A stretch of DNA of 64,000 nucleotides from Dyadobacter jejuensis (GTDB lineage: Bacteria; Bacteroidota; Bacteroidia; Cytophagales; Spirosomataceae): NCBI RefSeq assembly GCF_003149085.1, contig NZ_QGDT01000001.1, positions 1 through 64,000 of the forward strand. The letters are read 5' to 3'. Made by a program: the position numbers and the translations under genes. How positions within the stretch are numbered: the first letter of the stretch is position 1; every line of letters begins with the position of its first letter. The notes under the pieces were generated by a model, which had not been told where the DNA came from, did not search any database, and saw only the letters and a list, made by a program, of their open reading frames with translations. This document shows positions 5,818-8,649 of the stretch, piece after piece.

Positions 5818-6564
5818 TTGGCCAAACGAATTCTTCAACCGATACTCTCACTTTTTAGCCCTGGAGGGGCGGAGGACAAGAAATTTAAAGAATCTATTGC
5901 CCATGTTATAGGTACCAGGCCCTCCAATCTCGGAGTGTATCAGCTGGCCTTTTTGCATACCTCTGCCTCTAGAGAAACTGCTATTCAGGGGTTTCGAGAG
6001 TCTAACGAACGTCTCGAATACCTTGGTGACGCCGTGTTAGGCATGGTGGTTGCCGAATTCCTCTTTACCAAATATCCTTATAAAGACGAGGGTTTCCTGA
6101 CCGAAATCCGTAGCCGCATCGTCAACAGAGAGTCCCTTAACCAGATTTCTAGGAAGCTAGGCCTCGATAAGCTCATCGAATACGACGGCAACCATCGGGG
6201 AATGTCGCCCCGGTCGTCTATGTATGGCGACGCCCTGGAAGCCTTCCTCGGCGCTATCTACCTCGATAAGGGGTTTCGTTTTACCCGCACCTTCATCATC
6301 GGTAAGCTGCTGACCCATTATGACCTTGAAAATATTATCCAGAATAATATCAATTTCAAAAGCGTCATCATCGAATGGGCCCAGCGCGAAGGCAAGGATA
6401 TCCGCTTCGAAATACTCGAAGAGCGTGGTACCCGCCATCACCGCGAATTTATTTCCCAAATCCTCGTCAATGAAGAGCCCTTCGCCCAAGGCAATGGCTT
6501 TACCAAGAAAAAGGCAGAACAATCGGCCTCCGAAAAAGCCTGCGCCCTATTGGAGTTGAAATAG
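5818..6564 (+). CDS. rnc: ribonuclease III
   Basis: The 248-residue endonuclease cuts double-stranded RNA, for example in rRNA processing. The signature ERLEYLGDAVLG (64-75) with Asp71 is present, followed by the second acidic motif YGDALEAFLGAIYLDKG near 137-153. A double-stranded-RNA-binding domain fills about 175-248. The only sensible start is a TTG at 5818, 13 bases after the fabF stop, because no ATG lies in the N-terminal region. A TTG start and the tight spacing suggest that translation depends on coupling to fabF. The gene is followed by the large repeat cluster. Confidence 0.95.
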   Translation: MAKRILQPILSLFSPGGAEDKKFKESIAHVIGTRPSNLGVYQLAFLHTSASRETAIQGFRESNERLEYLGDAVLGMVVAEFLFTKYPYKDEGFLTEIRSRIVNRESLNQISRKLGLDKLIEYDGNHRGMSPRSSMYGDALEAFLGAIYLDKGFRFTRTFIIGKLLTHYDLENIIQNNINFKSVIIEWAQREGKDIRFEILEERGTRHHREFISQILVNEEPFAQGNGFTKKKAEQSASEKACALLELK

Positions 6565-6714
6565 GTTGTGGCTTGTTAGGTTTTAGGGGTTAAAGGGAAA
6601 TGTTAATTGCGGTCCGCCCCGCGGTTAAAAGTGCGCTAGCTAACTGCCTCCAATGCTTGCTTATTGCCTAACGCCTAGAGCCTAAAACCTATCCCCTAAA
6701 GCCTACAGCCTAAC

Positions 6715-6849
6715 GCCTTTGAGCTCAATTAAAAAGGGCCCTTCGACAGGGCCCTGTCAAGCTCTGCATGATCAGGGTGACATTTGTTATTATCTGTTAG
6801 TCAATGGTTTACGGAGCAAGTCGATGGTTGCCTAGTACCTTCGGCTGTT
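6715..6849. repeat. 134-bp repeat module, copy 1
   Basis: It runs from GCCTTTGAGCTC to CGGCTGTT. The first part contains GGGCCC...GGGCCC, a short inverted repeat that pairs better here than in the other copies. The central part reads CTCTGCATGATCAGGGTGAC, then a conserved ATCTGTTAGTCAATGG segment. Confidence 0.85.
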
Positions 6850-6959
6850 AAAAGTTAAATGCCTTCGCCCCCCGGTTAAAGGTTGAGTTGCTATGTAAAT
6901 CTAGCGCTTGCCTATTGCCTAACTCCTATTGCCTAACGCCTACAACCTATTGATTATAG

Positions 6960-7105
6960 CGCATATGAGTAACCTCCAAAACCCCGGAGGGGTGGAATAT
7001 TAATAGAAAATAGAATTCCTCAAGAAGGCAAAGCCCCAGCGGGGCGACATGATGTCTATGAGTTATCGGCTTTCGGCGGGAGGGTTTGTATGATCATTTG
7101 TGTCG
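6960..7105. repeat. embedded two-hairpin element interrupting the cluster
   Basis: Two GC-rich palindromes sit about 40 bases apart: ACCCC-GGA-GGGGT at 6981-6993 and GCCCC-AGC-GGGGC at 7033-7045, with AT-rich sequence (GGAATATTAATAG) between. This sequence splits one unit of the surrounding cluster after its heptamer run and is absent from the others, so it appears to be an insertion. From memory, similar GGGG-loop-CCCC intergenic elements are common in Cytophagales, but that could not be checked here. Confidence 0.65.
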
Positions 7106-7240
7106 GGATAAGGCAACCTGTTAAATTTTAAATGCGGTCCGCCCCGCGGTCAAAAAATGCGCTAGCTAACTGCCTCCAATGGTTGCCTATTGCCTAGCTC
7201 CTACCACCTAACGCCTACAGCCTAGAGCCTACGGCCTAAC

Positions 7241-7374
7241 GCCTTTGAGCTCAATTAAAAAGGCCCTTCGACAAGGCCCTGTCAAGCTCTGCATGATCAG
7301 GGTTACATTTGTTATAATCTGTTAGTCAATGGTTTACGGAGCAACTCGATGGTTGCCTAGGGCCTACGGCTGTT
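7241..7374. repeat. 134-bp repeat module, copy 2
   Basis: This is the same module as at 6715, with GAGCTC, AAGGCCCTTCGACAAGG and CGGCTGTT in the same order and only scattered base changes (for example GCAACTCGATGG for GCAAGTCGATGG). Confidence 0.85.
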
Positions 7375-7470
7375 AAAAGTTAAATGCGGTCCGCCGCACG
7401 GTTAAAGGTTGAGTTGCTATGTAAATCTAGCGCTTGCCTATTGCCTAACGCCTAGAGCCTACGGCCTAAA

Positions 7471-7604
7471 GCCTTTGGGCTCAATTAAAAAGGCCCTTCG
7501 ACAAGGCCCTGTCAAGCTCTGCATGATCTGGGTTGCATTCGTTATTGTCTGTTAGTCAATGGTTTACGGAGCAAGTCGATGGTTGCCTAGAGCCTACGGC
7601 TGTT
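7471..7604. repeat. 134-bp repeat module, copy 3
   Basis: Nearly identical to copy 2. Differences include GGGCTC for GAGCTC and GATCTGGGTTGCATTCG for GATCAGGGTTACATTTG. Confidence 0.85.
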
Positions 7605-7672
7605 AAAAGTTAAATGCGGTCCGCCGCACGGTTAAAGGTTGAGTTGCTATGTAAATCTAGCGCTTGCCTATT

Positions 7673-7763
7673 GCCTAACGCCTACAGCCTAACGCCTACG
7701 GCCTAACGCCTACGGCCTAACGCCTACGGCCTAACGCCTACGGCCTAACGCCTACGGCCTAAA
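7673..7763. repeat. 13 tandem heptamers GCCTAnn
   Basis: Thirteen head-to-tail 7-bp units, alternating GCCTAAC and GCCTACG (GCCTACA once, GCCTAAA last), fill exactly 91 bases. Shorter runs of the same heptamer occur in front of the other 134-bp modules. The unit length is not a multiple of three and the arrays differ in length, as in a variable-number tandem repeat. On the minus strand the unit reads GTTAGGC. Confidence 0.9.
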
Positions 7764-7895
7764 GCCTTTGAGCTCAATTAAAAAGGCCCTTCGACAAGGC
7801 CCTGTCAAGCTCTGAATGATCAGGGTGATATTCGTTATTATCTGTTAGTCAGTGGTTTATGGGGCAAGTAGATGGTTGCCTGGAGCCTTCGGCTG
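7764..7895. repeat. 134-bp repeat module, copy 4
   Basis: Last and most diverged copy of the module (CTCTGAATGATCAGGGTGATATTCG, TTTATGGGGCAAGTAGATGG). It directly follows the 13-heptamer array. Confidence 0.85.
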
Positions 7896-8063
7896 TTAAA
7901 AGTTAAATGCACTTTGTGCAGTTAAAGGTATGGTTCCTGAGTATATCTAGCGCTTGCTTATTGCCTAACGCCTAGAGCCTAAAACCTAAAACCTATCCCC
8001 TAAAGCCTACAGCCTAACGCCTAGAGCCTACAGCCAAACACCTATCCCCTAACGCCTGCATAC

Positions 8064-8117
8064 TGCCAAAATGACAGCATTTCACTCAACTTCCTGACAC
8101 AAAATGACAAAATGGCA
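8064..8117 (+). promoter_or_regulatory. cluster of TGNCA pentamers upstream of hsp20, possible operator
   Basis: Five TGNCA motifs precede hsp20: TGCCA at 8064, TGACA at 8072, 8095 and 8105, and TGGCA at 8113. Two pairs are spaced by exactly 8 bases and joined by AAA (TGCCA-AAA-TGACA and TGACA-AAA-TGGCA). Their position about 100-150 bases before the hsp20 start suggests regulator binding, for example in heat-shock control. TGGCA also recalls the -24 box of sigma-54 promoters, but no TTGC box lies at the required distance. Confidence 0.4.
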
Positions 8118-8217
8118 TTGTTTTTCTTGTTTTTAATTTGTGGTACAAAAGTTGAGATAAGGCAATTATCAGACTGAAAAAATCAAAATTTTAAATAAAC
8201 TAAAACGACATAGAACG

Positions 8218-8649
8218 ATGAGCACATTAGTAAAATCACATTTCGCAACACCTGGATATTTGAACAGTGTATTAGGAAAAGACTTTTTTAACGATTTCGG
8301 CAGTGCCACTTTAGGGAGTCATATTCCGGCCCTCAATGTTTTTGAAAGCAAGGAAGGTTTTCAGATTCAGGTAGTAGCACCTGGCTTAGAGAAAGCCGAT
8401 TTCAAACTGAATTTGGAAAAGAATCGTTTGACGATTTCCGTTCAAAAAGAGAAAGAGGAACAAGAAGTAGAAGGGAAATATACCCGTAGAGAGTTCAAAG
8501 TGGGCTCTTTCCAAAGGTCCTTCAATTTGCCCGACAGCGTGGACGAAGATAAAGTGGCCGCTAGCTATGAGGCTGGTATATTGACGGTTAGTCTGCCCAA
8601 GAAAGAAGAGGCCAAAGAGAAGCCTGCTAGGGAAATTGAGATTCAGTAA
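8218..8649 (+). CDS. small heat-shock protein, Hsp20 family
   Basis: The 143-residue chaperone holds unfolding proteins to prevent aggregation. The alpha-crystallin domain spans about 35-130, with the closing strand motif AGILTVSLPK (A-x-x-x-n-GvL class) near 118-127 and the VAPGLEKADFKLNLE segment near its start. It lies downstream of the repeat cluster, with the TGNCA motifs in its upstream region, and is followed by a strong terminator, so it is probably a single-gene unit under stress control. Confidence 0.95.
   Translation: MSTLVKSHFATPGYLNSVLGKDFFNDFGSATLGSHIPALNVFESKEGFQIQVVAPGLEKADFKLNLEKNRLTISVQKEKEEQEVEGKYTRREFKVGSFQRSFNLPDSVDEDKVAASYEAGILTVSLPKKEEAKEKPAREIEIQ

Follow-up and report, generated by a model that had tools for sequence, protein, structure and literature searches.

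Between the genes rnc and hsp20 of Dyadobacter jejuensis lies a cluster of short repeats, directly upstream of a stress gene. Its place raises two questions: how such a cluster came to stand there, and whether it affects the expression of its neighbour. Hairpins of the REP kind rank among the most frequent repeats in bacterial genomes, and those of the GTAG type have a dedicated enzyme, the RAYT. We analysed the cluster within the first 64,000 nucleotides of contig NZ_QGDT01000001.1 (hereafter, the window), together with the rest of the genome and the genomes of relatives.

Results

A mosaic of short repeats between rnc and hsp20

The cluster spans about positions 6577–8057 of the window. It is preceded by rnc (ribonuclease III; 5818–6564, plus strand, stop at 6564) and followed by a gene of the hsp20 family (8218–8649, plus strand, start at 8218), from whose start it is separated by about 160 bp. 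It is made of four copies of a module that we denote B, six copies of a hairpin element (M3), six arrays of GCCTANN heptamers and one M2 palindrome pair. The units follow each other in the order M3, heptamers, B, and this order is repeated, with M2 and its flanks breaking in between B copies 1 and 2. A preliminary description of this DNA had reported that a second module and heptamer arrays alternate with the main module in a fixed order, and the six M3 copies and six arrays located here agree with it.

The B modules are direct copies, all on the plus strand, situated at 6718–6844 (copy 1, 127 bp), 7244–7369, 7474–7599 and 7767–7892 (copies 2, 3 and 4, 126 bp each). They had been described as four near-identical 134-bp modules differing by a few bases; the number four is correct, but the modules are 126–127 bp long and differ pairwise at 8–13 positions (90–94% identity), so that the earlier wording was somewhat too strong. 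Each copy contains an M1 hairpin, at 6736–6782, 7262–7307, 7492–7537 and 7785–7830, respectively. The M1 of the window is a larger form of the hairpin, which on the minus strand runs TGTCACCCTGA, a nested palindrome and then GTCGAAGGGCC; in B copy 1, where the M1 core matches with 0 mismatches, the minus-strand reading is TGTCACCC..GTCGAAGGGCC. Copy 1 has the TGTC foot of M1 intact, and the others have TGTA, TGCA and TATC in its place.

M3 consists of a GC-rich stem between two GTTAAA sequences, as in copy 1 (6589–6629; GTTAAA..GCGGTCCGCC..CGGTTAAA). The other copies, also on the plus strand, are found at 6847–6880 (with a degenerate hairpin), 7120–7154, 7372–7406, 7602–7636 and 7895–7928, the last of which carries another stem (TGCACTTTGTGCA) inside its GTTAAA flanks and forms a terminator-like hairpin on the minus strand. 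Orientation is uniform among all four M1 copies and likewise among all M3 copies. The heptamer arrays, again on the plus strand, occupy 6666–6714 (7 units), 6910–6951 (6 units), 7185–7240 (8 units), 7436–7470 (5 units), 7666–7763 (14 units) and 7963–8053 (13 units). The M2 palindrome pair, ACCCCGGAGGGGT ... GCCCCAGCGGGGC (6980–7051, plus strand), is present once in the cluster, and members of its family occur on contig C14 as well.

The youngest parts of the cluster are a pair of neighbouring 230-bp units at 7240–7698, which are 94–95% identical, and a 14-bp repeat array at 7673–7767, which is 97% uniform; this is the 14-unit heptamer array taken as a 14-bp repeat, the most recent of the expansions. 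The cluster was nevertheless not built in one recent step, because its B copies diverge by 6–10%. The earlier suggestion of recent duplication or homogenisation is therefore right as to local duplication and homogenisation, but it does not hold for the age of every part.

The preliminary description saw no gene in the cluster, and indeed no open reading frame of at least 60 aa exists between the rnc stop and the hsp20 start; on this ground we rejected a gene or small ORF as an explanation. A known RNA family was likewise rejected, since no Rfam covariance model reached its gathering score anywhere in the window.

The rnc–hsp20 gap in other Dyadobacter species

The synteny rnc–hsp20–degP is conserved across Dyadobacter. 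In most species rnc and hsp20 are about 240 bp apart; the distance is 380 bp in D. tibetensis, which is the nearest species in the rnc search, and 1653 bp in D. jejuensis. In three Dyadobacter species the gap reaches about 2.6 kb, and the one of them that was examined (L077) holds two genes there. Two other Dyadobacter (L070:6740–7595 and L073:6740–8382) carry unrelated tandem palindromes in the gap (CCGTGGATTGAAATCCACGG, TACCTACGGTA). Because other members of the genus carry genes or unrelated repeats at this place, the gap evidently tolerates insertions. The cluster is a gain specific to D. jejuensis, and it is a non-coding mosaic of several short REP-like families.

Beyond the end of the cluster, parts of the hsp20-proximal stretch align across the genus. 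Around positions 8085–8160 of the window, and in the same region of relatives, a GACATTWTGTC-like motif recurs upstream of hsp20 in many Dyadobacter. It is possible that this motif is a regulator site.

Recurrence of the cluster parts

Searched for across the genome, as the preliminary description had proposed, the full 126-bp module B was found in the window only, but parts of it recur elsewhere in the genome, and the cluster is therefore not a purely local artefact. The 27-bp core of M1, with up to 2 mismatches, has 13 copies in the genome: 4 in the window and 9 at C1:789264–790928. Four versions with 3 mismatches lie on contigs C6 and C25. At up to 3 mismatches, the core is absent from 47 other Dyadobacter genomes.

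The three-unit heptamer array GCCTANNGCCTANNGCCTA has 69 matches in the genome, compared with 0 for a reversed control, which excludes chance. Such arrays are frequent only in D. jejuensis and D. tibetensis, with fewer in some of the other relatives searched. D. tibetensis has them at sites elsewhere in its genome, accompanied there by an M2-like palindrome and an M3-like hairpin; the M1 core is absent from that species. M3, M2 and the heptamers are without a linked enzyme. By eye, GCGGTCCGCCGCGCGGTCAAAGG on contig C14 of D. jejuensis is similar to GCGGACCG..CGGTCGAAGG in relatives.

A GIY-YIG gene flanked by the M1 core

The nine copies of the M1 core outside the window flank, on both sides, a gene (C1:790224–790511) that encodes a 96-aa single-domain GIY-YIG protein (PF01541, E 5.3e-20). 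The core is thus common to the cluster and to this locus. The nearest solved relatives of the protein are the UPF0213 proteins 1zg2 and 1ywl, and the catalytic residues Y7, Y17, G19, R27 and E65 are retained in 95% or more of 38 relatives. The same contig carries another GIY-YIG gene, frameshifted, at about 874 kb, within a cluster of the related repeat GCCTGAGCGGAGTCGAAGGC. Along the 1.03-Mb contig C1, the density of the hairpin core peaks at both GIY-YIG genes, besides a run with 108-bp spacing at 126.7–127.4 kb.

Some further observations concern the surroundings of such genes. At positions 238–267 of the window, CCTTCGACTCCGCTC stands twice in tandem, a repeat type also seen around the gene at 874 kb. 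GIY-YIG ORFs at L349:5080–6230 (C16) and L247:1–331 (C6 of D. tibetensis) lie directly 3' of tandem tRNA-like fragments (CGGGATGTGGCGCAGCTCGGTAGCG...), and at L160:7430–7930 (C14) three tandem partial tRNA-like copies stand beside an apparently complete tRNA sequence.

Association of GIY-YIG genes with tagged hairpins

Relatives of the 96-aa protein are encoded in 25 of 48 Dyadobacter genomes, and the flanks of their genes carry hairpins of the form TGTCA-NNN-TGAGC-NNN-GTCGAAG-NNN. The core of these hairpins, TGAGC-N-GTCGAAG, occurs within 500 bp at every one of the 23 Dyadobacter GIY-YIG loci outside the D. jejuensis genome (23/23). By comparison, it was found within this distance at 1 of 30 RAYT loci of the same genus (Fisher p ~4e-14) and in 0 of 136 control intergenic gaps (Fisher p ~3e-28), the controls being gaps of 150 bp or more in the surroundings of rnc at 35 Dyadobacter loci. 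On contig C1 of D. jejuensis itself, 5 of 238 gaps of the same kind (at least 150 bp) contain the core. A count of 10-mers in the GIY-YIG flanks, made without a preset motif, placed CTCCGCTCAG, GTCACCCTGA and CGGAGTCGAA near the top, so that the most widely shared 10-mers are those of this hairpin; the same count in RAYT flanks gave no common motif of that kind.

The association can also be seen at the level of whole genomes. The excess of hairpins over a reversed control has a median of +37 in genomes with the gene versus −6 in genomes without it (p ~5e-7, a value that ignores kinship); three gene-less Dyadobacter (G060, G062 and G011) are still rich in hairpins, and some gene-bearing genomes are poor in them.

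Since the motif had first been seen in the GIY-YIG flanks themselves, we settled its definition in advance and turned to an independent set, 28 loci of a second genus within the phylum. The motif was present within 500 bp at 18 of these loci, with 100 near and 6 far copies, and the remaining 10 had another type of repeat, made up of CGTCACTTCGAGTG and TTGTATCGAGAAC. On a tree of 79 proteins, for which the definition of the motif was widened after inspection, the type of repeat changes 6 times, compared with 16.5 times when the labels are shuffled (0 of 200 shuffles gave a value as low). GIY-YIG genes and (C/T)GTC-tagged hairpins are therefore strongly and replicably associated, and the type of repeat follows the nuclease tree.

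Outside this phylum, a few records of a plasmid collection serve as pointers. Related hairpins flank the gene on either side in two records of Methylobacterium and in one each of Sphingomonas and Planktothrix, and in the record of M. bullatum all three CTCATCCTGAGG copies in 40 kb lie near the GIY-YIG gene. Such hairpins are absent at the GIY-YIG loci of Sphingomonas paeninsulae, Acidiphilium, Cupriavidus and Radiobacillus, the Radiobacillus gene being part of a housekeeping operon, and the Legionella locus has another palindrome. In S. paeninsulae (L355:1501–1776) the GIY-YIG ORF, which has no hairpins, is situated between rnc and era. A literature search, covering few subscription papers and no preprints, found no paper that ties GIY-YIG proteins to REPs, and a search for the letters of the hairpin returned no result.

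Covariation in the hairpin stems

The stems of the GIY-linked hairpins covary. Among 119 distinct hairpins, the four pairs outside the GAGC...GTCGA core are 91–96% complementary, versus 29–55% with shuffled partners, and as many as four pair types occur; complementarity at the five positions that follow stays at the shuffled level. The same stem pattern is found in the second genus. The inner GA/GA and GC positions are conserved. In the core itself, tandem G-A mismatches can form; nearest-neighbour folding gives these a poor score and does not favour the bare core hairpin (z 0.55). The suggestion that M3 is a decayed hairpin of the GIY-linked type is only a lead.

Discussion

Origin of the cluster

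We propose that the cluster is a mosaic of REP-like elements that grew by local duplication, and that a GIY-YIG nuclease acts on hairpins of the M1 class; to this explanation as a whole we assign a probability of about 60%. Several short REP-like families would have entered the rnc–hsp20 gap, and the cluster would have grown there through local tandem duplication, with unequal exchange multiplying the 230-bp unit of B, M3 and heptamers and slippage lengthening the heptamer arrays. M1 would belong to a widespread class of hairpins with a (C/T)GTC tag and a GAGC...GTCGA core, whose home loci flank genes of single-domain GIY-YIG nucleases. The nuclease may cut or nick hairpins that are extruded or in single-stranded form, and repair of the break between copies could spread hairpins to new gaps and create tandem amplifications, both in cis and in trans. 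Such an account does not need a role in hsp20 expression. Hairpin cleavage, spreading and amplification by the nuclease are inferred from the association, and its action in trans may have contributed to the cluster in the window, which would then be a partly decayed by-product. Several facts count against this explanation: the B copies differ by 6–10% and only copy 1 has kept an intact TGTC tag, the window contains no GIY-YIG gene, and M3, M2 and the heptamers lack a linked enzyme of their own, D. tibetensis having counterparts of M3 and the heptamers while lacking the M1 core. The exceptions among whole genomes, rich in hairpins with no gene or poor in them despite it, and the folding result for the bare core also weigh against it.

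A wider reading, to which we give slightly less than even odds, is that in Bacteroidota, Alphaproteobacteria and Cyanobacteria the (C/T)GTC-tagged REP superfamily is mobilised by single-domain GIY-YIG nucleases, one of which would have produced the window cluster by acting in trans. The pair of enzyme and hairpin would then parallel that of RAYT and REP, while being built on an unrelated nuclease.

The cluster could also have grown neutrally, if slippage during replication and RecA-dependent unequal exchange multiplied its short palindromes and its heptamers, with the GIY-YIG genes as passive passengers that landed in, or were carried by, repeat-rich gaps. The uniform 14-bp array and the direct 230-bp units are consistent with slippage and unequal exchange, the heptamers and M3 multiplied with no enzyme linked to them, and the flanks of RAYT genes are likewise rich in repeats. 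However, passive landing predicts no sequence specificity, yet the hairpin stands at nearly all GIY-YIG loci and at 1 of 30 RAYT loci, and the type of repeat tracks the protein tree. We regard purely neutral growth as the less likely explanation, though a serious rival.

The preliminary description asked whether the cluster affects expression, and the hairpins between rnc and hsp20 might indeed act in regulation or RNA processing, as terminators, attenuators or mRNA stabilisers. There are 13 terminator-like sites in the scanned region where shuffling predicts 2.9 (s.d. 1.6), and T-rich runs follow the M1 and M3 hairpins on the minus strand. It is, however, on this minus strand that most of the terminator-like hairpins of the cluster proper lie, whereas rnc and hsp20 are both on the plus strand; moreover, the cluster is absent from the gap of the other Dyadobacter examined, two of which have unrelated repeats there, and Rfam has no match in the window. 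Such a function is, in our judgement, very improbable. An effect of the cluster on hsp20 was set aside as unsupported, given the short gap of most Dyadobacter, the unrelated repeats of other species and the fact that the cluster stops before the hsp20-proximal region; an effect through RNA structure or DNA topology is conceivable. Still less credible is that the cluster is an artefact of assembly, with repeats collapsed or mis-joined. The genome is available as a draft in 72 contigs, several of whose ends fall inside such repeats, and the copy number of the repeats is uncertain for this reason; but the B copies differ at 8–13 sites and are separated by unique spacers, and D. tibetensis also has clusters of M3-like hairpins and heptamers.

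On its own, the cluster in the window would rank as ordinary, and it is the association of nuclease and hairpin to which it leads that is worth testing. This association provides a concrete, testable candidate enzyme for REPs of the CGTC/TGTC type. If the proposed partnership is true, it would be a second, independently built alliance of an enzyme with REPs, and many unexplained intergenic repeat clusters, including the one described here, would gain a cause.

Comparison with known systems

The hairpins described here resemble the RAYT/REP system (REPINs, REPtrons) in being small, dispersed intergenic palindromes, copies of which flank a single nuclease or transposase gene, and in forming mosaic clusters with other palindromes. 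They differ from it in that they have no GTAG tag, the foot of M1 being TGTC-like, and in that the linked gene encodes a GIY-YIG protein and not an HUH tyrosine transposase; RAYT-linked REPs flank a Y1_Tnp gene, and the core described here is near such a gene at a single RAYT locus. The intact RAYT gene of D. jejuensis (C26:10606) lies in a different repeat cluster. RAYT was rejected as the mobiliser because the RAYTs of this genome are in other repeats and, across the genus, the hairpin is missing from the surroundings of RAYT genes (present at 1/30). In the cluster at that RAYT gene (L184; C26, ~10606), three palindromes alternate and the repeat unit measures about 280 bp.

In BIMEs, regularly spaced palindromes alternate in orientation, whereas the M1 and M3 copies of the window all point the same way. 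The cyanobacterial STRRs are degenerate tandem intergenic heptamers with a lineage-limited distribution. The six arrays of the cluster (5–14 units) are likewise tandem, degenerate, intergenic heptamers; here the consensus is GCCTANN and the arrays are attached to the M3 hairpin.

CGTC-tagged REPs are short intergenic hairpins that have an unpaired CGTC, TGTC or CCTC foot, a stem of 8–9 bp and a loop of 4–5 nt, and often form dimers (PMC3733652). Di Nocera et al. (2013), who noted TGTC as a frequent form of the tag, reported no dedicated transposase for these REPs, leaving the question open (PMC3733652). The GIY-linked hairpins resemble this superfamily in their TGTCA foot, covarying stem and short loop, and the foot is regular both in these hairpins and around the gene at 789 kb. 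The window copies of M1 carry a nested palindrome where the short loop would be, and one of the four preserves the foot. CGTC-tagged REPs are mostly head-to-head dimers with a CCA tail; because the copies in the window are direct repeats without this tail, we file them as related to the superfamily and not as a member of it.

A further comparison is with SegB, a free-standing GIY-YIG enzyme of T-even phages. SegB is a phage enzyme that acts on tRNA loci, and no hairpin target is reported in the part of its description drawn on here (PMC13096335). The likeness lies in a small, free-standing GIY-YIG enzyme associated with tandem amplification; two Dyadobacter GIY-YIG loci, moreover, adjoin tandem tRNA fragments, which recalls the position of SegB beside tRNAs. 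Both in cis and in trans, SegB promotes the tandem amplification of segments (PMC13096335), and it thereby offers a mechanistic precedent for amplification driven by a GIY-YIG enzyme.
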